The translations under genes were made by a program, and so were the position numbers. This document shows positions 39,805 to 63,174 of a DNA stretch of 64,000 nucleotides, piece after piece. The DNA is from Nitzschia sp. pyKryTriq1 (lineage: Eukaryota > Bacillariophyta > Bacillariophyceae > Bacillariales > Bacillariaceae). Location: NCBI GenBank assembly GCA_956465555.1, contig OY101124.1, positions 1,550,001-1,614,000 on the forward strand. The letters are read 5' to 3'. The notes under the pieces are model-generated. The model searched no databases, was not told the origin of the DNA, and was given only the letters and a program-made list of their open reading frames with translations. Numbering within the stretch: position 1 is the first letter of the stretch; every line of letters starts with the position of its first letter.

Positions 39805-42800
39805 CTACTCGTCCTTGACGATTTCTCTACTCGATTGTCCGTCGCGGTGTAGAAAGTCCTTCTTAGCGACGTACGTATCTATGTGTCGTTCGTGCGTTTC
39901 GCTCGTCACATTTTTTGTAAAAATATCGCTTCTATTCTCTTCTGACTTTACGAAAATCAGTTTGAAGAAGCCGTCTTCACAAGCTTTAGTGATCCATCGC
40001 GTTTTCATGTCGATGTGCTTCGTACGTCCAGTGGTCGTTACGTTCTCGGCCATAAAGATGGCGCCGATGTTATCCACTCTACATATTACTGGTAGCTGTA
40101 CCGGTACTCCCATGGAAATAAGGACTTGAAATATAAATTTGATTTCTTTCGCTGCTTCGACTAGAGCGTAAAGCTCGGCCTCGCTGCTGCTCAACGCGAT
40201 GGTCGTCTGGCCTTTGCTTCGCCAGCTAATGGGTACTCCCTGTAGGAATACGCAGAATCCGGTAACGGATATTCTAGTATCCTTGTCTCCTCCCCAATCG
40301 GAGTCAGAGTACAGTATAAGTTCCCATTGCTTTTTGTTGGTATCGATCGGTCTCGGATCGATTTTTAGTCCGTATTCCTTGGTGTCTAGCGTGTACTTTA
40401 TGGTACGTTTGAGTTCTTTGAATGCTGCCACTGTCGGTGCGTCCAGGGCTTTCGAGAGTTCTCTCACTGCGTTCGCTATGTCTGGTCGCGAGTGCTTTAC
40501 TAAGTAGAGTAGCATTCCTACTCCTGATCGGTACGTAGCATGATCATGTTTGTGTAGTTTGTCTTTCTCTTCTTTTGCGCGCAGGATCCCTTGATTTTGC
40601 GTGCCGGGTGTTTTGTAGCTCGGTAGTCCTTTAACTAATTCGCCGAAGTTCGCCTCGAGTTTCTTAATTAGATGCGGCTGGTACAGCCATGCTTTAGTAC
40701 GGTCTTTCGAGAACGCCACATGGCAACTCAGGAAATCCGTCATGTCTTCTTCGACTTTTAGCGTTAGGTCGTTCTTCTTTAACGATTCGATGGTGTCTCG
40801 AATCGCCGTCTTATCTCCGACAAGAAGAAAGTCGTCTACGTAGAGGGCTATATATACTGCGCCCTTCTCGTTGATTCGACTCAGTAAGCAGGGATCTGCG
40901 TATCCTCCCTTGAATCCGACTTCTCGTAGTATCGTTATCATTTTCTTCCAGTACTGACGGCTTCCTTGTACAAGCCCGTAAGTTGCTTTATTGAGCTTGA
41001 CGCATTCGTCGTCTTTGGCATTTATGCCTTGTGGGCTGTTCATGTAGATGTCGATGCCGTCGAGGTCGCCGTGCAGAAATGCAGTCTCGATATCTACTAG
41101 AGTAGTGCTGTAGTTTGGTCTCATGGTCGCCATAAGTAGTAATAGGCGAAACGTTACGTCGTGCACTACTGGAGAGTACGATTCTTCGAAGTCGACTCCG
41201 GGTATTTGGCTGTAGCCACATGCTACCAGCCTCGCTCGGTAAGTACCGTTGCGTTTTATTTTAAAGACCCATTTGTTTTTGACGCAACGTCTATCGGGCG
41301 GGATGTCCTTTCTTTTTATTATCGTCCAGACGTTTCTATCTCGCATGTCTTTTAATTCTTTTGATATTGCGTCTCTCCACTTCTCTCTATCTTCTTTGTT
41401 TGGGTGATTCCATGCATCGTCGTACCTAGTTGGTTCGTCTGGTACTTGCATAGTCGTTAATGCAAATTCGGCGGGAACTTGCTCGATTAAAAGGTTGGCG
41501 ATGTCTTTATCGTCTTTCTCCCTCCCTAATCGAGTGAGTTCACGTGCCATTGCTTCTGGTTCGTCGGTCATGTCTAGTAGACGTTGTGCGATAGGGTTGT
41601 AGTAGGTGGAGAGGTTTCGTAGTTCGCGTGACATTCTAGTCGGGCGTGGGTCGGGTGGGTCGTCTGGTTCGTCGGGGTCGTCTTGTTCGTTTGTGTCCGT
41701 TTTCGGTTCGTTCGCTCCTCCGTTATTTTGTTCGTCTTCGGAGCTCACGTGGTGGGAATGTTGCGTCGGTGACGCACGTTGATGTAATTCTGTTTGTCCG
41801 GAATTCGCAGGCGATTCGGGGGTTGCTGTTGTCCCCCGATCTTGTATCTCGGCAGTTTCGTCTGATATTGCCTCAGTGCCGCTGGGCGGTGTGTATAGTG
41901 CGCCGGTCAGCGTTTCTTCCGTTTGTTCTTCAGTCATTTGTCTTTCGGAGATGCTTGGAGGGCTTAGCAGTTCCACGTCATCGTCTGTTCCTGAATCGAG
42001 AACGTTGATGACGTAGTTTGATGAGAGCGAATCGCGGGCTCGATCGCCCATGTATTCGCCATACGACTTGTTGAGCCATAAAATGTCCCGCGTTTTGATC
42101 AGTGCCTTGGTCGATAAATTCCACATCCTGTAGCAGTCGTTGCTCGTGTCTTCCGGGTATCCGATGAGGATGCATATTTTGCCGCGTAGTTTCAGTTTTG
42201 ATCGCAGTGTACGGTCCTTCATGTCCGTGACTACTGCGACTTCGCCGAATGTTTTTAATGAATTGGCGTGCGCTGGATTTTTGCCGTCAAAGGCTTGGAA
42301 CGAGCTGATCGGCCTCGTCGACGAGATCATTAAATTATCGTTGAACGTCGCCATTTGCGCCGCTTCAGCCCATAGTCCTCGTTTTAATTCATCATCCATG
42401 CCGGCGGCATTGAATGATGTTCGCATTCTGTCGTATAAAGTTTTAAATTTTCTTTCGACTCTACCGTTTCTTTGTGGTGTATTCGGTGGCGTAAATTCAA
42501 ATTGTGTATGTATTCCGGCGTGTAGTAGCGCTCGCTGAGCTGCTCTATTTTCGCCGGAATCGTCGCATCGTATGTATTTGGGTGCGTGTCCGATTTGTTT
42601 TTCTATATTGCGACACAGTGTGAGTATCGCCTCTACGGCGTCGCTTTTGCGTCTAATGAAATATGAGAATACCTTGTCGGTGCAGTCGTCGAGCGCCATG
42701 AGCCAGTATTTTGACTCACCGTAGCTCGTTGCGTTCATCGACGAGATGTCGATAAATAGTCGTTCGCCCGGTGTTTTGCTCTTTTCATTGAGCTCTTTTG

Positions 42801-45800
42801 ATACCGCGGCTTGTTTGGCTTTTGAGACGCCGCATTGTTCGCATGGTTTTAGTTTACCGGTAAGAGTCCAGCCGTAGTAGGCTGCCGTCTTACGGACGGC
42901 GTCTTCGCCGACGTGCCCAAGTTGGCTGTGGACGTCGTTGATGTTTTTAACGATAGTATTGTTCTCGTTGTGTGTTCTGTCGTTTGTCGCCGATTCTTCG
43001 GTGTTTGTTTGTGCGATTTCGTGCGCCGCCAAGTTTGTGATCGGCGTCAATTTAATTCCGCACACGTAGGCTCTGCCGCAGTTAAAGATTCGGTTGAATC
43101 TTATCTGTCGGCCGAACGGTGTGGTTAAATTGATTCGTAATCCTTCGTTGCCGAGTCGCCACCCTCCCTTGAGTGCGACCGGTATGCTGATGAGGTTTAT
43201 CCAAAGTTCGGGGACGAATTTTACGTTTCGCAAGATGAGTGTTTCTTCTTCGCCGTCTTGTGTGTGCATGATGGCTTTGATGTCGCCCATTTTTGTTGCG
43301 ATTAGGTTCTTACCGCTACCAACTTTAATTAATGCGTGTATCATTTTCACGTTAAACATGCCTGTGTCGTCGTTGCAGAGGTGAGATGAGGCTCCGCTAT
43401 CGGCGAGCCAAATTCCTTTGCTCATGTCTCTTCTGTGGTCTTCAGTTGTAGTTACTAGCGCTATGTCAGATGGTCGGTAAACAAAAATGGATCCTTTTAT
43501 GTGATTAGACGTGTCGTCGTGTTCTTCCTGGGCATATGTACTGTCTTCTTCAGTGTCTCGCACTGCTGGTACGTTCAGAGCCTCCGAGCGCGGCGGCGCG
43601 CGGATGACTCCGGCGTTTATTGGGTCGTAGTGTTCTAGAAGATAGTCTTGAATTATCTTGGTCTTGCGATTTACTGTCGGGTGGTCGACTACCCAGGTTG
43701 CGTTCGTAGGGTAGAAGTTACTTGAATTGAGAACCATCTCCTGGTGGATGGCGAATTGAACTGAGATCCTGTTAAGAATGAACATAAAACTATCTAAGTA
43801 CCTGTCTTCAGGGTCCGTCAGTTGCGCGTTGAACCATGCGTGGTGCATGGCGACATCTTTGACAGTGTAAAGTCCTTCCTTGTGTAGATGGTATAGTAAA
43901 TTTGTTGCCATTTCTTGGTAGCACACTGTATGGGTTTGATCTCTTGACCATTCCTCAACTACTGCTGCAACTAGTGCAGTCATGGACACGTAGTGTCGGC
44001 GCTCTTCGTAGCGTCCGTAGTAGTTGCGGTTGTCTTCGTCGGCGAAAGTAGGTTCGCCGTGTTCGTCGAGCTCCCATTCCCTTGGGCGAAATGCATCGGT
44101 CCGTCGTGCGACCGGGCTGACGAATCCCCCCTGTTCGCCTCGGTCTGAAACTGACACGTCACCGGGCGAGCGTGCGCGTTCCTCATTTTCTTCTCGCGCG
44201 AGCAAGCCGGGGCGAAAAAGTGGCTGCGCGGTAGCGTGTGTAGTGCTCGCTAAAATATTCTCCATCTTGTTGTCGTCTTCAGTGCGTCCATTGTAGGTCT
44301 TCTCACTGCAACCAAAACACAGTTGCAGCTCAGAACGCGTAAGGCGACGGCACTCTGCGCATGGTAGTAGTGGGGGTGGTTTGGTGTCCCCCAGTTCTGT
44401 GGTGGGAAGGCAGAGATCTTCAGAGAATTGATTTTCCTGATTTTTGACAACAACAAAAGTCGGTATTTCGACAATGTTGCGCTTGTTGTTGTCCAATATT
44501 TCGTTAGCAGCTTCCTCCCGCATCCTCTTGCGGTTGTTTTGGCGTCCTGACTTGGTTGTTGCACTGAACAGATCACTCGAAGTGTCGCTATCTTCAGCGC
44601 GACTTTTGGAGCTTGGAGGAGGGTCGCTTTCGCTCTCTGAATGAATGAATTTCTTGCTGGGAACGAAGTATCCCTCGTCTGCAAAGTGCAGGGGATGTCT
44701 TTCTTCATTAATGGGAGGTGGCTTCACCGCAATATTGCGGAAAAGGAGCTTGGTTGACTCGTTGTCCGAGTCGGGGCGTAGATTGGACGCCCACCGCTTT
44801 TGACGTTTGCGTCCTCCTTCAACCTCTACAGCGACCAAGCGTCCGTTTTTAGTGGTTCCCGAGCGGGGGAACCATCTGTAAGGTATCTCCGGGGAGTCTT
44901 CTTCCTTGATGGTCTGGTAGGGGGCTTCCCAGAGGTGTACTCCTGCGTCGGGCGCGTCGGCGTCCGACGCTTCACTTTTCCAGGTCGAGAGCTCGGCGCC
45001 CACCCTGGGGCTTACCACCATTCCTCGGTCCTGCAAGTACCGGAACTTGCAGGCCTCGATGTGATCGAGGTTTGGGGAAGAGTTGGTGGTCCGGGACGGA
45101 CTCGAAGTGACGGTACCGTCCTCGTTTTGACGGTCCAAGGTGGTTTTTGTGGAGTCGTCATCTTGCTTGGACTCGAGCACTGGTACGGAGCGATCCTCCA
45201 GGAAAGGGAGGCTGTGCTCCTGCGGCCAGCTTGTCCATTCCATAAGCTCGCCGGGACCCAAAGCTAGGCTTACCAAGTCGTCTTGGAGCCAATCGGCGAG
45301 GGGATGAAGTGAAGGGGTCTGCAGGGAATCGTCAGAATTTGCGTTCATTCTCGCGTTTGTCCTGTTTTCGTTCTGATCTGCCTTTTCTTTTCGTTTTGCT
45401 TTTGCAGGAACGAGTTTTATGAGACCGGACGAGATCGATTTGAAAGTTTGGTTGTTGCAGATCCTATCCTGGATGACTACTTCAAGGTCAAAGTTCTGCT
45501 CCAACTTCCCAAGAAATTCAGGCAGTCTTGCCGAATTCTGTCGTCCGGGCGTGACGTCGGACATCAAAAACTTGTGCGCGTGATACAGCGCGTCCGCGAC
45601 CATCTCGCGTTCGTCCTTCCATCCGTCGCTGACGATTCCTTTATTGCTGACGTGGTCGTTTCTGAATCGTACTTTGCGATCCGTCTCTCTCTCTTCATTT
45701 TCTTTTGCGTCGCCCACTTTCTCATAAATTTCAAATTCAGTGTTTTTAATTTTGTCGTATTCACTACCTGTAGTACCTGTAGTACCTGTAGTACCTGTAG

Positions 45801-47139
45801 CGGTACCTGTAGCGGTACCTGTAGCGGTACCTGCAGCGGTACCTGTATTAGTACCTGTAGTACCTGTAGTAGTGGTAGTAGTACCTGTAGTACCTGTAGT
45901 AGTGGTAGTAGTACCTGTAGTAGTGGTAGTAGTACCTGTAGTAGTACCTGTAGTTATTTCTTGTATCTCACCGGGCTCTAGCCCTAGCAGTACTACGTCG
46001 TGGCGCGCCATCATGGCTGCGTCACTGTTCCTCACACTGTGGTTCTGTCTGTGGTTATTGTGTGGCCTTCCGAATCTACCTTGGTTCGGTCCATTTCTTT
46101 GCTCTCTTTGCAGTTTGAGGCATTGGGACTTCATGTGTCCCTTCATGCCACAGTGATGGCAATGTCCTTGGAACTTGTTTCCATTGTTGTTGCTTCGTCC
46201 GAAGTTCGTACCGGTAGCATTGTTTCGACTACCGTAGTAACCACTGGTCTGGCCTTGGTTACGCTTATTATTGTCCGTACAGTTGGCTGCCATGTGCCCC
46301 GTTTTACCGCAGTTGCGGCATTTGCCTTTAAATCTCTTGTGCGAGGCGGCCATAAGTGCCGTGTCGCTCGTCCCTCCGTTGCCTTGTTTCTTATTTTCAT
46401 TGCTACGGTATCTCTGATACCGAATACTTAACATTTCGATGACTTTACTTAATGTCATCGAGGGTTCTGCGCTTTCTTCGTTGTTCGCTAATTTCTGGTA
46501 TTCAGTCATTTCAATCACGTCCCCGTATACTTTACTGGGGATTGTGTTTAAAATCTGCGTGATTAGAGCGTCGTCGTCAATCATTTGACCGCCGGCCTCT
46601 GCGATTCTGTAGCGAAGATCATCTAGTTTCGCGATGTAGGATTCGGGGTCCTCGTTGACCCCGCACGTTTTACTGTAATATTGTTTTAAAAGTTCGGAAC
46701 GCGCCATCGCGTTCCTCGGCTCGTATTTCTCTACGAGTTTCTTCCAGGCTTCTCGTGCGTCTCCGCGCGCATGTTTACGGTCCTTTGACCATCTAACTAT
46801 GTTGAACGCAGCCTTTCCTTCGGCTGTCTTTGTGTTCATGGACAATAATAGGTCTGAGTACGCTACGTCGTTGTACTTGACGTTGAGCGCAACCTCTTTT
46901 TGAATGTCTTCGGGTACGTTCCCGTTCTCGTCTCGATACTCGTCGAGGTCCATCTTCAGGTCGGATGTATCGATGAATATCTTGCGTCCTGCCTTGCTCG
47001 ATCGTGCACGAGCAAGGTACTTCTCCTTCCAGGTCGGCCAATCGGTGGCCTTACCTTCAAAAAGGAGTACGTAGATTCTCGTCTCCTTGTTGGTCGAGAA
47101 TTCGTCGGTCTCGGCGTCGAGTAGCGCCGTGTTCGTCAT
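39805..47139 (-). CDS. Copia gag-pol polyprotein
   Basis: One frame of 2444 residues. Parts in order: Gag with two CCHC knuckles (CRNCGKTGHMAANC near 275-288, CHHCGMKGHMKSQC near 330-343); a Thr/Gly repeat tract (about 393-460) encoded by GTACCTGTA-type units; a long unassigned stretch (about 460-1230) with a CxxC-x10-CxxC motif near 925-945; protease DSGASSH near 1245; integrase HHCC (about 1403-1450) and DDE core; reverse transcriptase with YVDDFLL (about 1950-2150); RNase H (about 2270-2365). Gag and Pol share one frame, as in many Copia elements. Confidence 0.93.
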   Translation of the reverse strand: MTNTALLDAETDEFSTNKETRIYVLLFEGKATDWPTWKEKYLARARSSKAGRKIFIDTSDLKMDLDEYRDENGNVPEDIQKEVALNVKYNDVAYSDLLLSMNTKTAEGKAAFNIVRWSKDRKHARGDAREAWKKLVEKYEPRNAMARSELLKQYYSKTCGVNEDPESYIAKLDDLRYRIAEAGGQMIDDDALITQILNTIPSKVYGDVIEMTEYQKLANNEESAEPSMTLSKVIEMLSIRYQRYRSNENKKQGNGGTSDTALMAASHKRFKGKCRNCGKTGHMAANCTDNNKRNQGQTSGYYGSRNNATGTNFGRSNNNGNKFQGHCHHCGMKGHMKSQCLKLQREQRNGPNQGRFGRPHNNHRQNHSVRNSDAAMMARHDVVLLGLEPGEIQEITTGTTTGTTTTTTGTTTTTTGTTGTTTTTTGTTGTNTGTAAGTATGTATGTATGTTGTTGTTGSEYDKIKNTEFEIYEKVGDAKENEERETDRKVRFRNDHVSNKGIVSDGWKDEREMVADALYHAHKFLMSDVTPGRQNSARLPEFLGKLEQNFDLEVVIQDRICNNQTFKSISSGLIKLVPAKAKRKEKADQNENRTNARMNANSDDSLQTPSLHPLADWLQDDLVSLALGPGELMEWTSWPQEHSLPFLEDRSVPVLESKQDDDSTKTTLDRQNEDGTVTSSPSRTTNSSPNLDHIEACKFRYLQDRGMVVSPRVGAELSTWKSEASDADAPDAGVHLWEAPYQTIKEEDSPEIPYRWFPRSGTTKNGRLVAVEVEGGRKRQKRWASNLRPDSDNESTKLLFRNIAVKPPPINEERHPLHFADEGYFVPSKKFIHSESESDPPPSSKSRAEDSDTSSDLFSATTKSGRQNNRKRMREEAANEILDNNKRNIVEIPTFVVVKNQENQFSEDLCLPTTELGDTKPPPLLPCAECRRLTRSELQLCFGCSEKTYNGRTEDDNKMENILASTTHATAQPLFRPGLLAREENEERARSPGDVSVSDRGEQGGFVSPVARRTDAFRPREWELDEHGEPTFADEDNRNYYGRYEERRHYVSMTALVAAVVEEWSRDQTHTVCYQEMATNLLYHLHKEGLYTVKDVAMHHAWFNAQLTDPEDRYLDSFMFILNRISVQFAIHQEMVLNSSNFYPTNATWVVDHPTVNRKTKIIQDYLLEHYDPINAGVIRAPPRSEALNVPAVRDTEEDSTYAQEEHDDTSNHIKGSIFVYRPSDIALVTTTEDHRRDMSKGIWLADSGASSHLCNDDTGMFNVKMIHALIKVGSGKNLIATKMGDIKAIMHTQDGEEETLILRNVKFVPELWINLISIPVALKGGWRLGNEGLRINLTTPFGRQIRFNRIFNCGRAYVCGIKLTPITNLAAHEIAQTNTEESATNDRTHNENNTIVKNINDVHSQLGHVGEDAVRKTAAYYGWTLTGKLKPCEQCGVSKAKQAAVSKELNEKSKTPGERLFIDISSMNATSYGESKYWLMALDDCTDKVFSYFIRRKSDAVEAILTLCRNIEKQIGHAPKYIRCDDSGENRAAQRALLHAGIHTQFEFTPPNTPQRNGRVERKFKTLYDRMRTSFNAAGMDDELKRGLWAEAAQMATFNDNLMISSTRPISSFQAFDGKNPAHANSLKTFGEVAVVTDMKDRTLRSKLKLRGKICILIGYPEDTSNDCYRMWNLSTKALIKTRDILWLNKSYGEYMGDRARDSLSSNYVINVLDSGTDDDVELLSPPSISERQMTEEQTEETLTGALYTPPSGTEAISDETAEIQDRGTTATPESPANSGQTELHQRASPTQHSHHVSSEDEQNNGGANEPKTDTNEQDDPDEPDDPPDPRPTRMSRELRNLSTYYNPIAQRLLDMTDEPEAMARELTRLGREKDDKDIANLLIEQVPAEFALTTMQVPDEPTRYDDAWNHPNKEDREKWRDAISKELKDMRDRNVWTIIKRKDIPPDRRCVKNKWVFKIKRNGTYRARLVACGYSQIPGVDFEESYSPVVHDVTFRLLLLMATMRPNYSTTLVDIETAFLHGDLDGIDIYMNSPQGINAKDDECVKLNKATYGLVQGSRQYWKKMITILREVGFKGGYADPCLLSRINEKGAVYIALYVDDFLLVGDKTAIRDTIESLKKNDLTLKVEEDMTDFLSCHVAFSKDRTKAWLYQPHLIKKLEANFGELVKGLPSYKTPGTQNQGILRAKEEKDKLHKHDHATYRSGVGMLLYLVKHSRPDIANAVRELSKALDAPTVAAFKELKRTIKYTLDTKEYGLKIDPRPIDTNKKQWELILYSDSDWGGDKDTRISVTGFCVFLQGVPISWRSKGQTTIALSSSEAELYALVEAAKEIKFIFQVLISMGVPVQLPVICRVDNIGAIFMAENVTTTGRTKHIDMKTRWITKACEDGFFKLIFVKSEENRSDIFTKNVTSETHERHIDTYVAKKDFLHRDGQSSREIVKDE

Positions 47140-47266
47140 TTTCCTTTTCGTTGTTCGTTCTAGCTAGTCTTACGGCCGGTGGTTCGATAATCTGGGCTAG
47201 CAGAAGTAGTGTATCGTTTACTGTTTCGATGTACTAGTAAGCTTCAGGCTTTAGTACCAATTGGTA

Positions 47267-57982: not shown

Positions 57983-58263
57983 TGTTGAGTAAAAATGAAG
58001 GAGGCTGAACATACGAAGGTATGACAGCTGATATACGTATGTATGAAGTATGGTGGTGTTAGACATCATATGTCGGAACGATATTTTGTGTGTGACAGCC
58101 AACCATTACTAAATGATGTCCACACCACAGGAGTGTGTTGAGTAAAAATGAAGGAGGCTGAACATACGAAGGTATGACAGCTGATATACGTATGTATGAA
58201 GTATGGTGGTGTTAGACATCATATGTCGGAACGATATTTTGTGTGTGACAGCCAACCATTACT
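57983..58263. repeat. Exact 128-bp direct repeat with 25-bp spacer
   Basis: 57983-58110 and 58136-58263 are identical over 128 bp, starting TGTTGAGTAAAAATGAAGG and ending CAGCCAACCATTACT. The spacer is unique. No coding frame, tRNA box or terminal inverted repeat is apparent. Confidence 0.97.
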
Positions 58264-58686: not shown

Positions 58687-59072
58687 ATCCCCTTCGTACA
58701 GTATAGTACTTGATATTACCGGACTCATGATTGGCAGCGGTACTGCTGGTTTTGTGTCATGCGTACTATTAGTTGAGGGGATATCATCGTGTGATGATGA
58801 TGAAGTGATTGGTGCTAGTACTATTGGGGGGACTGTTGTTGGAAGTCCTTTGGTACCTAGTACTTGTAGCTGATGAGTATGGTGGTGGTGGTGGCTGCTT
58901 GATCATTGCTGCCAACAAGTATGAAGGACGGTTTGTGGCTGAGACTGGTGGTGGAAGTTCTTTCCTTGGAATCTTGCTCGTCATGATTGGTGTTGTTGCT
59001 GATGGGACTGGACTGGTAGGAGTGGTTCGGCAGCTGCTGATGCGTAGTACTCGTATGTTGGAGTGATTATTG
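58687..59072 (-). pseudogene. Duplicated 3' end of the AlkB-SRA gene
   Basis: 58687-59127 repeats 59128-59573, the last coding segment of the AlkB-SRA gene. Shared pieces include ATCCCCTTCGTA, ATTACCGGACTCATGATTGG, CTTGCTCGTCATGATTGG and TTGGAGTGATTATTGCT. The copy encodes the same MTSKIPRKE, PPVSATNRPSYL and PPPYSSATST segments but shifts frame after them. The live gene reads through the first unit and stops at 59073, just inside the second, so this part is probably now 3' untranslated sequence. Confidence 0.85.
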
Positions 59073-62000
59073 CTACGTGGTATGATAGGGTGATTGTATC
59101 ACCCATTGCTTGTGAAATAAGTTACAAATCCCCTTCGTAGTAACACTTGATATTACCGGACTCATGATTGGCAGCGGTACTGCTGGTTTTGTGTCATGCG
59201 TACTATTAGTTGCGGGGATATCATCGTGTGATGACGATGAAGTGATTGGTGCCAGTGCTATTGGGGGGACTGTTGTTGGAAGTCCTTTGGTAGTACTTGT
59301 AGCTGATGAGTATGGTGGTGGTGGTGGTGGTGGCTGATTGATCATTGCTGCCAAGTATGAAGGACGGTTTGTGGCTGAGACTGGTGGACGTTCTTTTCTT
59401 GGAATCTTGCTCGTCATGATTGGTGTTGTTGTTGCTGGGACTGCTGGTAGGAGTGGTTCGGCAGCTGCTGATGCGTAGTACTCGTATGTTGGAGTGATTA
59501 TTGCTGCGTATGATGGGGCGATTTTATCATTCATGGCTGCTGGTTGTAGAATAAGTTCTTTTCTTGTCATCCCCTTGAACGCCACGAGGGTTTCGGCAGC
59601 TGCTAGTGCTACATCGGATGTAGAATCTTGCGGGGAATCGTCGGATAGAGGAGTGACTGAGACTGGTTTCGATGATTGTTCCTCCGAGGGTACCATGGGC
59701 ATGTTGCCAGCTTCCCGACAACGAGTCAAGTACTCGTCAGTGTCGGGAAGCATGCGTTCAAGTATGCACTCGTACGGCCCATTGGGGTCTCCGTTTCCGT
59801 CTTCGTCCTTTTCGGGCCGTGAAACCCGGACAATTTTGTAAAGACCGTCATATCGATAAACGGTCTCGGTCCGGAGCTGCAGATTGTTAATCGCACACCA
59901 GGGGCCCACATACTTTGACGAGCGAAAGACTCGGACATTATACCCCTTGCGCTGGCTCGTTACAAGCCCCTCCGCTCCTTTGCGTTTCTCGACTGCGTAG
60001 GTTAGCCACCGAAATGTATCATTGCCCTTTCCGTCCTCTCGAAGCCCAGACACAATGAGGGCGTCACAGCCCTCTTTCATATTGCCGCTTACGCCACGCT
60101 GTTGACCTTGGTGAGCGCGCGAATGGACCAACTGGGCGCGAGAGTAGACAGTGCCCTCATGAATGCCGGCGATCGGACCGAAACAATAGCTCAGTTTCTT
60201 CCTTGGATCCAAATTCAGGCACTCGCGGCCGGAATCCTTGCCGTAGGTTTCTTGGCTGCCTGTTCGGAATACAAGGGCTATTCGACGCGGGCTGTTTTCC
60301 TCTCCTCGCGGCGTGGTCGTCGCCAAAGGATCCGGACTGGTTTGTTTTAGTAGCTTGTTGTTCTTTGACAATGAGGAGGACGTTGATGACCTCCTGCTCG
60401 ACTTTCGGACCGGGGGCACTGGTGCCACCGAATGAGAATAGCTCAACTGCATTTTGCCTATACAGAAAGAAGTATGTATGTATGGATTCATTCGTAATCG
60501 TATGTATGTAGCAAAAATATACTAAGAGTGAGAAAGACCGGCGCACGTGGCCAAGAACAAAAATGGATTCAGCACCCACGAACAATAATGCAGCATGCAA
60601 TCCCTTGCTATACTGTACTGTAGTACGTAGTACGTACCATCCATGGAATATGCGTCGCCTATAATATTATAACAACAAAGCCATAGTAGTATGAGAAACA
60701 TCGTTTAGACACCAAGTAGTGGTAGTGTTTCTTGCAATCATGATATACCAAACAAGGAAGAGGGAAATGACTTGGATTTCGAGTGTAACAAGAAGAATGA
60801 ATATAATATTATATTACTCACCTGGCTGTAGATACAAAAAGATATCTTCATCACCGTCTTCAAATGCATCTGCCTTGCATTTTGTCAGATACGGCTGGAT
60901 TCGGACAGGTCTTGCATGTGATGACGGAGCATCTACGACGACCGCCATGATTAGCTCTTCGCCTTGATCGTCATCTTTTTTTATAAAAAATATAATGAGA
61001 AACCATAAAGGCGGGTGTGAGGTTGGTTGTCGTTCAATATCATGATGATGATGATGATGATGATACTAGGCGTATGTAGGTATATTGTTATTGCCAAAGA
61101 GGTATACATACTGGTATCATACATCATACATCATCATCATCATAGTACGACATACGTACCTGCGTGGGCGCCCATTTTGTCCTTGCCATCGCGGTAAAGG
61201 ACAGGATTGACCCCAATCGTCCATTTGTCCACACCACAGGTACGAGCAATGTCTTTTGAGAAAGCTTCGAGCTTGGGAAGCCGGGATAGAGGGCGAGACT
61301 TCATCCTACTCTGACCATACTTGTACCCCGGCTGGGGTTGATGGTCAAAGTCTTCGGACGCATCCTCGTGCAACAGGAAATGCAATCGCGGCTCGTAATT
61401 GATTCCATGGATCGGGTATTCCCGAAAGATCTCGGGACCCTGCGAGAGCAGTTCTTCTTTTAGCCCCGCGGCCTCTTCTTCCAAAAGGCAGTGGGGATAG
61501 ATTTTGATCTCTCCCCCCCGCTTCAACTGAATCACGTGCGGCTTTACCGCATGATGATAATGATGATGATGATGATTCTTCTCCGCCCTGGTATGAACCC
61601 GACGAGCTTCTTGTTGCAAAGGTATCTCATGGATGATTTTGCGATCGGTCCACTGACCTTTCGAGGCATCAAACGTTTGCATCGTTGCGATTGTTCGATA
61701 GGGGCGGGCGTCATCATTATCATGATGATGTTGATCACTATGACGATGATGATGAGGAGGAGGAAGATAGCAATAGTAATCGGAATTGCTGGTGCGATTT
61801 CGCCCTCCCCCCAGCGAGTACCTGTGGCGCTGATTTTTGGAATACTTTCTTCTTGGCGTTTTCCCCGTCGTCGTCGTCGTCGTCGTTGTTGTTGTTGTCG
61901 TCGTCTTTTGTTTCTTCAGAGCCGGCGCATCGTCGTCGTCGTCGTTGTTGGCGATTCCATCCCCTTCTTTTTTGGTTGAAGCGTTGACATTGGCGTTGAC

Positions 62001-62090
62001 GTTGGCATTGACATTGACTTTACTGTCATTGGCGCCGACGTTGACGTTGCCGTTGACGTTGACGTTGCCATTGGCAGGCAAGACTTCCAT
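59073..62090 (-). CDS. AlkB-type 2OG-Fe(II) dioxygenase fused to an SRA-YDG domain
   Basis: Four exons (62090-61160, 60974-60822, 60658-60638, 60457-59073), all junctions phase 1, encode 829 residues. Residues 1-170 are low complexity (Asn-Val, Thr, His runs) with a basic KTPRRKYSKNQRHR stretch. The AlkB fold follows: VIQLKRGGEIKIYPHCLLEE, NYEPRLHFLLHED, DKWTIGVNPVLYRDGKD, iron ligands His309 and Asp311 in GAHADDDQGE, the microexon GDAYSMD, distal His377 in MQLSYSHSV, and the 2-oxoglutarate motif R-x5-R (Arg427, Arg433) in RRIALVFR. The SRA domain covers about 458-610: FGPIAGIHEGTVYSRAQ, DALIVSGLRED, YNVRVFRSSK, YRYDGLYKIV. A Pro/Thr/Ser tail ends the protein. AlkB enzymes remove N-alkyl groups from nucleic acids and SRA domains flip and read methylated cytosine; a targeted DNA demethylase is inferred. 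Met at 62090 was chosen over longer upstream frames. Confidence 0.88.
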
Positions 62091-62598: not shown

Positions 62599-63174
62599 TG
62601 CCGTATCCCAAGCTTCGTGGCGGTACGCCGCCTACCACGGGGCAAGTCCCCGGGACCCTCAAAGATGCGAGCGGAACATCTAAAACAATGGTACGGAGAG
62701 GCTTTCCCGGACAGGGACGGACCACCACCAGATAGGACCCGCTGGGACCCACTGGTCACCCTCATACAACATGTGTTTCGGACGGGAGAAATCCCCCAAG
62801 CCTTGCCGTATGCGGTGTGTGTGCTCCTACCCAAGCCGGACGGTGGTGTGCGTGGACTTGGATTGTTGGAGGTAGTCTGGAAGGTAATTTCCACCACTAT
62901 CCTCACCATCCGCTTGAATGACACGATAGAGTGGCATGACAGCATCCACGGTTTTCGGGCCCACAGGGGAACGGGAACAGCCATCATCGAGGCCAAGCTG
63001 TTCCAACAACTGGCCAACGTACACCAAGTCCCAGTCTTCGAGATCTTCTTGGATCTCAAGAAGGCCTACGATGCCGTGGACCGCGGCCAGGTGTCGTGGG
63101 TGTTACCAACGGATTTGTGGCGTTTTCACGGTGCGGGCGCGTCGCCTTTCCAGAGCCGAACGATCGGAATGTGA
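62599..63174 (+). mobile_element. Non-LTR retrotransposon (LINE) reverse-transcriptase fragment
   Basis: An open frame carries the N-terminal half of a LINE-type reverse transcriptase: VRRLPRGKSPGPSKMRAEHL, HVFRTGEIPQAL, CVLLPKPDGGVRGLGLLEVV, HDSIHGFRAHRGTGTAIIEA and FLDLKKAYDAVDR, which holds the first catalytic Asp. Similarity stops right after AYDAVDRGQ. The rest (WVLPTDLWRFHGAGASP, stop at 63174) is unrelated, so the FADD-type active site, the thumb and any endonuclease are missing. It is a 5'- and 3'-truncated relic, though its frame is still open. Confidence 0.88.

Follow-up and report, generated by a model that had tools for sequence, protein, structure and literature searches.

Within the window (the whole 64,000-nt stretch of Nitzschia sp. 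pyKryTriq1 DNA that was analyzed, to which all positions refer), a single nuclear gene is predicted to encode an AlkB-type oxygenase and an SRA domain in one protein. Both halves are known families. The function that we favor, at a probability of roughly 40%, is that of an SRA-guided N-methyl dealkylase, which would repair 3mC (and 1mA) in cytosine-methylated chromatin.

The gene lies on the minus strand (62090-59073), and its predicted coding sequence of 2490 nt, which is divided into four exons by three introns, translates to 829 a.a. The gene model is as follows:

61160..62090, minus strand: exon 1 (931 nt), with the ATG, the N-terminus and most of the AlkB domain; it ends at GAHA, followed by GTACGT
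60975..61159, minus strand: intron 1 (185 nt; GTACGT...AAAAAG; phase 1), which brings in stops if retained
60822..60974, minus strand: exon 2 (153 nt), which completes HADDDQGE and carries the AlkB strands as far as LYLQPG
60659..60821, minus strand: intron 2 (163 nt; GTGAGT...TTATAG; phase 1)
60638..60658, minus strand: exon 3, a 21-nt microexon with most of the GDAYxMDG motif
60458..60637, minus strand: intron 3 (180 nt; GTACGT...CTGTATAG; phase 1)
59073..60457, minus strand: exon 4 (1385 nt with the stop), with the end of the AlkB domain, the linker, the SRA domain and a variable C-terminal tail
59073..59509, minus strand: the C-terminal tail, which overlaps a copy of a tandem duplication of ~435 nt (58708-59078 is the other copy)

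When the sequence was re-read, the coordinates and motifs that an initial annotation had given for 59073-62090 all checked out, as did the three phase-1 introns that it had claimed. Reading across the splice junctions of the window, all three introns are GT-AG, and stops arise in the translation if any single one of them is kept. Residues ~1-183, encoded by exon 1, form a low-complexity N-terminus. Because the microexon is 21 nt long and has phase-1 flanks, the frame survives its skipping, but seven residues drop out of GDAYxMDG, a well conserved motif; skipping by alternative splicing is a possible off-switch. The least certain part of the gene model is the end of the C-terminal tail, together with the stop. 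This tail looks recent, because one copy of the tandem duplication at the 3′ end of the gene (58708-59078 and 59145-59509, at a spacing of 431-437 nt) sits inside it; the copies are 83-98% identical across four ungapped stretches.

Repeats and mobile-element remnants were also seen in the surrounding DNA. Downstream of the gene, a perfect 128-nt direct repeat occupies 57983-58110 and 58136-58263 (153 nt start to start). Just upstream, on the opposite strand (+), 62599-63174 appears by eye to be a reverse-transcriptase-like fragment of the non-LTR type, and an uninterrupted stop-to-stop frame of 2452 codons (39805-47163, minus strand) resembles, again by eye, a Ty1/copia-type retrotransposon polyprotein.

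According to Pfam, the window protein has two domains: (i) a 2OG-FeII_Oxy_2 domain (PF13532) at residues 196-433, spread over exons 1-4 (64 bits against a cut-off of 31.2; E 2.7e-17); and (ii) a SAD_SRA domain (PF02182) at residues 461-585 (47.2 bits against a cut-off of 30.7; E 2.5e-12). Besides these, the Pfam search of this protein returned just one sub-threshold repeat match, with no match to Tet_JBP (PF12851) and no RING, Tudor, PHD, SET or extra chromatin domain. Conservation was counted over 64 rows (the 63 matches of the first protein search plus the window protein), with gaps set aside. The residues that matter for catalysis, and those that may line the SRA pocket, are placed as follows:

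61164..61166, minus strand: H309, first iron ligand, in exon 1 (61/61 aligned rows)
61160 and 60974-60973, minus strand: D311, iron ligand, which straddles the exon 1/2 junction (60/61 aligned rows)
60432..60434, minus strand: H377, third iron ligand, in exon 4 (60/60 aligned rows)
60264..60284, minus strand: R427-x5-R433, which we take to be the 2-oxoglutarate-binding pair, in exon 4 (each 60/60 aligned rows)
59808..60182, minus strand: the SAD/SRA domain (residues 461-585 by Pfam)
59997..60020, minus strand: SRA pocket candidates D515 to Y522 (D515 in 60/61 rows, Y522 in 58/61)

The AlkB half has a complete Fe/2OG site, and dealkylation activity is predicted for it. As the initial annotation had said, the third iron ligand and the R-x5-R pair are supplied by the SRA exon. 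Since H377 and R427/R433 lie in the SRA-carrying exon 4, separate complete genes are strongly disfavored. The GDAYxMDG motif is conserved as well (G362 59/62, D363 58/62, Y365 58/60, D368 53/61), and the linker residues D443 and G445 are each present in 60/60 aligned rows. One homolog (P0038) has a V in place of the iron-binding D311 (HAVD) and is possibly inactive.

Three protein searches, which gave 63, then 48 new and then 9 new sequences (the second and third scored the 8000 candidates sharing most words), identified 120 distinct homologs. In the precomputed Pfam assignments, PF13532 and PF02182 are both present in 82/120, PF13532 alone in 13, PF02182 alone in 22, and neither in 3; in a separate motif test, the AlkB iron motif lies upstream of the YDG motif in 84/120. 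The joining of AlkB and SRA is not a matter of chance, because the same two-domain protein recurs in these 82 homologs, diatoms among them. A proteome search for both domains had been suggested in the initial annotation, which had named orthologs with the two domains always in separate genes as evidence against a fusion; such consistent separation is not what the homologs display. Two-domain diatom members come from Cylindrotheca closterium, Nitzschia inconspicua, Nitzschia sp. Nitz4, Epithemia, Amphora coffeaeformis, Pseudo-nitzschia multiseries (identifier Psemu1) and Cyclotella cryptica (identifier CCRYP), and beyond diatoms they occur in Aureococcus and Chrysophaeum. In two Triparma proteins (P0046 and P0049) the alignment runs through both parts; they are not counted in the 82, because both models start within the AlkB domain and P0046, at 19.4 bits, falls below the Pfam cut-off of 31.2. 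Named sources of the fusion are so far ochrophyte algae only, and a wider spread is possible, since most members are environmental proteins. Proteins with both domains are already listed in databases, one of them under the source name "2OG-Fe(II) oxygenase superfamily/SAD/SRA domain".

Could the two domains nevertheless belong to two separate genes, or the fusion be an artifact of the gene model? Upstream in the exon 4 frame there is an ATG near 60491, some genomic contigs seem to have had the gene divided in two by gene callers (P0040 with AlkB and P0092 with SRA, the longest contig being 12937 nt for each), and the 13 AlkB-only and 22 SRA-only homologs could be read in the same way. Many orthologs, on the other hand, are one ORF. 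They include P0083, an MMETSP transcriptome ORF that covers AlkB profile positions 66-194 (the last two thirds) plus the SRA domain, and P0115, a Cyclotella cryptica model with the MAKER index 353/1/1/1/1/1/10/132/1126, which we take to indicate ten exons with every splice site transcript-supported. Given the conservation of the fusion and the position of the third iron ligand and R-x5-R within the SRA exon, the two-gene reading was rejected as extremely improbable.

The two halves also appear to have evolved together. Distances in the AlkB part and in the SRA part are correlated (Mantel r 0.82; 0/999 permutations reached this r, the largest giving 0.13) over 76 of 85 rows (the 84 motif-positive proteins and the window protein), namely those covering both domains. 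This correlation would fit a single ancient fusion passed on as a unit, although co-variation by shared descent is expected between parts of the same gene in any case. In a tree of the 76 rows (without Triparma, branch supports not given), the window protein falls with Nitz4 and P0071, and Cyclotella and the pelagophytes are placed elsewhere. One AlkB domain spread over four exons, recurrent two-domain orthologs, a transcriptome ORF and correlated domain evolution all bear out the one fused gene of the initial annotation.

An origin of the entire fusion in viruses or prokaryotes was considered and rejected. With a pattern made of the SRA motif only, 5 loci were confirmed among 15 pattern matches in viral contigs and 64 among 173 in prokaryotic genomes, and AlkB homology was found at 0/69 of these loci (E <= 0.01; two AlkB queries, flanks of at most 2-3 kb, in part truncated where a contig ended); such a scan would overlook a viral or prokaryotic fusion whose SRA motif has diverged. 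A reading as a defense system was likewise rejected: PADLOC, applied to ortholog P0008 only, returned just CARF_2OG, via the oxygenase part.

The AlkB half is probably ALKBH2/3-like, a kinship drawn from a family profile and not from the single window sequence. This profile (alignment A1, 56/63 first-search matches) reached 25 sequences among solved structures at E <= 0.001, and the AlkB-type ones are ALKBH3 (best 1.9e-10) or ALKBH2 (best 2.5e-4) only. Searched alone against solved structures at E <= 0.01, the window protein gave 6 matches, all of them SRA (TagI, UHRF1), with no AlkB structure. In the family-profile alignment, HSDDE of ALKBH3 lines up with HADDDQGE of the fusion protein. ALKBH3, ALKBH2 and the fusion have in common a PF13532-type domain, HxD...H and R-x5-R; in contrast to ALKBH2 and ALKBH3, the AlkB fold of the fusion continues straight into an SRA domain via the conserved linker, and we know of no ALKBH2 or ALKBH3 that has such a domain. 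In AlkB, the residue four after the first iron histidine contacts the base; at the corresponding position of the family, four after H309, D is found in 34/61 rows and T in 17/61.

There are 12 PF13532 places in the genome, the AlkB–SRA gene included. The fusion is not the sole ALKBH2/3-like enzyme of this genome, because a stand-alone ALKBH2/3-like gene (L006) is present as well (E 9.7e-19 to ALKBH3). Two nearly identical AlkB-type frames (L004 and L005, C9, ~5.4 kb apart) have their AlkB-type domain fused to a stretch that resembles, by eye, a THUMP/RNA-methyltransferase region.

Extra domains are assigned to 9/82 two-domain proteins (precomputed Pfam): PF07039 in P0029, PF07496 in P0037 and P0044, and PF13771 in P0043, P0047, P0051, P0053, P0054 and P0058. 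We take these domains to be Tudor-like, CW and PHD-like, respectively, and their presence points to chromatin. Many N-methyl bases are substrates of AlkB-family enzymes, and ALKBH3 also acts on RNA, which would allow for an RNA target; the fusion might on these grounds erase another mark, either DNA 6mA or a methyl mark on RNA. Such a role seems quite improbable, given that ALKBH3 and ALKBH2 were the only AlkB homologs among solved structures within reach of the family profile (E <= 0.001), and that the SRA domain, with the chromatin domains in 9/82 proteins, points to DNA. For 6mA, which the initial annotation had listed as a target, no support was found: the genome gave no match to the MT-A70 domain, with the controls also silent, so this is not counted as absence.

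Among solved structures, the SRA half matches TagI best (8e-22, family profile), and hhalign relates the fusion SRAs at 99.8% to an alignment that combines TagI with five phage SRAs and the other SRA of the genome. In the TagI study, the pocket consists of Tyr55, Tyr67 and Asp58, with Gln35 in the thumb, and the finger is much shorter than that of UHRF1 and lacks the NKR motif, yet TagI is still 5mC/5hmC-dependent (PMC6212794). The fusion shares with TagI the SRA core, the thumb glutamine (Q488, equivalent to Gln35, kept in 55/61 rows), the pocket tyrosine (Y522, equivalent to Tyr67, kept in 58/61 rows) and the YRYDGLY motif, with R570 in 61/61, Y571 in 59/61, D572 in 60/61 and G573 in 60/61 rows at its YDG core. 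On the other hand, the effector of TagI is an HNH nuclease, its finger is longer, and its pocket has two tyrosines. The position equivalent to Tyr55 (508) is occupied by R in 30, S in 9, D in 7 and W in 3 of the 61 rows, with others in the rest; this other aromatic pocket wall is mostly missing from the fusion SRAs, and the Pfam definition of the domain does not require the walls. D515 is present in 60/61 rows, but its distance ahead of the pocket tyrosine is 7 residues, versus 9 for Asp58 of TagI, and the alignments disagree here, as HMMER skips the pocket and hhalign aligns it with gaps.

The finger stretch of the fusion SRAs, from Y522 to R544, has 22 residues in 59/61 rows and 22-25 in 61/61, versus 29-41 (mode 37) in prokaryotic and phage SRAs, for which 60/69 loci were measurable; the 9 loci that failed the finger pattern have a full-length finger by eye. 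Compared with longer-finger SRAs, ~15 residues of the DNA-contacting finger are missing, and the fusion SRA seems to be a derived form common to the family. In the genome's second SRA gene (L001, 412 a.a.), the finger stretch is 36, and no AlkB motif was seen by eye in its frame. UHRF1 and SUVH5 belong to the same SRA family as the fusion (best family-profile E 6e-9 and 8e-8, respectively), and the stretches of UHRF1 matched by the profile omit the finger region. With a finger of 22-25 residues in 61/61 measured rows, and no Tudor, PHD or RING in the window protein, the fusion is not a UHRF1-type reader.

It is conceivable that the SRA half has lost modified-base reading altogether and is a mere DNA or chromatin tether, with the AlkB half as a general repair enzyme. 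The short finger in every measured row and the non-conserved first pocket aromatic would agree with this, whereas the strong constraint on D515, Y522, Q488 and the YDG motif counts against it. The TagI paper describes a short-finger SRA, without the NKR motif, that remains 5mC/5hmC-dependent (PMC6212794), and a pure tether is in our view rather unlikely. Judged from the sequence alignments, 5mC reading by the fusion SRA is likely.

Under the favored reading of an SRA-guided dealkylase, the SRA half would, via the conserved linker, dock the enzyme on DNA with modified cytosine, most likely 5mC, and the ALKBH2/3-like AlkB half would oxidatively strip N-linked methyl groups off a flipped DNA base. 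The 3mC would come from off-target methylation by DNMTs, and the fusion would clear such damage. According to one paper, DNMTs introduce 3mC off-target, ALKB2 repairs 3mC, and DNMT1/DNMT3 co-evolve with ALKB2 (PMC9246332). An ALKBH2/3-like domain joined to an SRA fits a search for 3mC at methylated cytosines. The genome has 8 DNMT-domain matches, two of which seem to share one frame. The DNA substrate, the targeting of 5mC by the SRA, the 3mC/1mA substrate and the link to DNMT errors are what we infer for this protein. Several points count against this function: the window protein alone matches no AlkB structure, the SRA mostly lacks one pocket wall and ~15 finger residues, the pocket carboxylate cannot be placed with certainty, and 3mC repair need not depend on the fusion, because the stand-alone ALKBH2/3-like gene is present in the genome. 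The window protein itself is without an extra chromatin domain, which counts against it too. The reader-eraser on modified DNA that the initial annotation had proposed is plausible: the AlkB half has the catalytic residues, and the profile reaches ALKBH3/ALKBH2. The SRA half, however, differs from a plain 5mC reader of the UHRF1 type (short finger in 61/61 measured rows, most of them without the first pocket aromatic).

TET and JBP are 2OG-Fe(II) oxygenases that act on DNA bases, as is proposed for the fusion, and they belong to a different family (PF12851). The main rival to SRA-guided N-methyl repair is that the fusion substitutes for TET: the SRA would find or present 5mC, and the AlkB half would oxidize it to 5hmC/5fC/5caC, which would amount to active demethylation. 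By Pfam the domain is AlkB-type, not TET/JBP, and we know of no AlkB enzyme that oxidizes 5mC efficiently in cells; we regard this substitution as unlikely. AlkB, ALKBH2 and ALKBH3 reportedly oxidize 5mC in vitro, to go by the title of Bian et al. 2019 as listed among the references of PMC8508711 and PMC11431407, and the two UDG-superfamily matches in the genome are possible excisers. The genome gave no TET/JBP match, which would agree with a substitute, with the positive controls also silent, so this negative is not counted as absence. A tentative and somewhat doubtful extension is that the fusion is the ochrophytes' own TET replacement, in which the SRA would find 5mC, the attached AlkB would erase adjacent DNMT-made 3mC or oxidize the 5mC, and the re-shaped finger would make room for the second active site.

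Domain surveys list many SRA and AlkB architectures. Among the literature matches listed, no paper describing the AlkB and SRA pair was found, the main domain surveys being outside the reach of the search, and an earlier mention is possible. In the main text of a paper on diatom DNMTs, a term search for SRA, YDG and dioxygenase gave 0 occurrences (PMC9998398). As an ALKBH2/3-like repair domain joined to an SRA, the protein would represent a natural fusion test of the DNMT–3mC–ALKBH2 link; if it is true that the fusion oxidizes 5mC, it would be a TET-independent demethylase in ecologically major algae.
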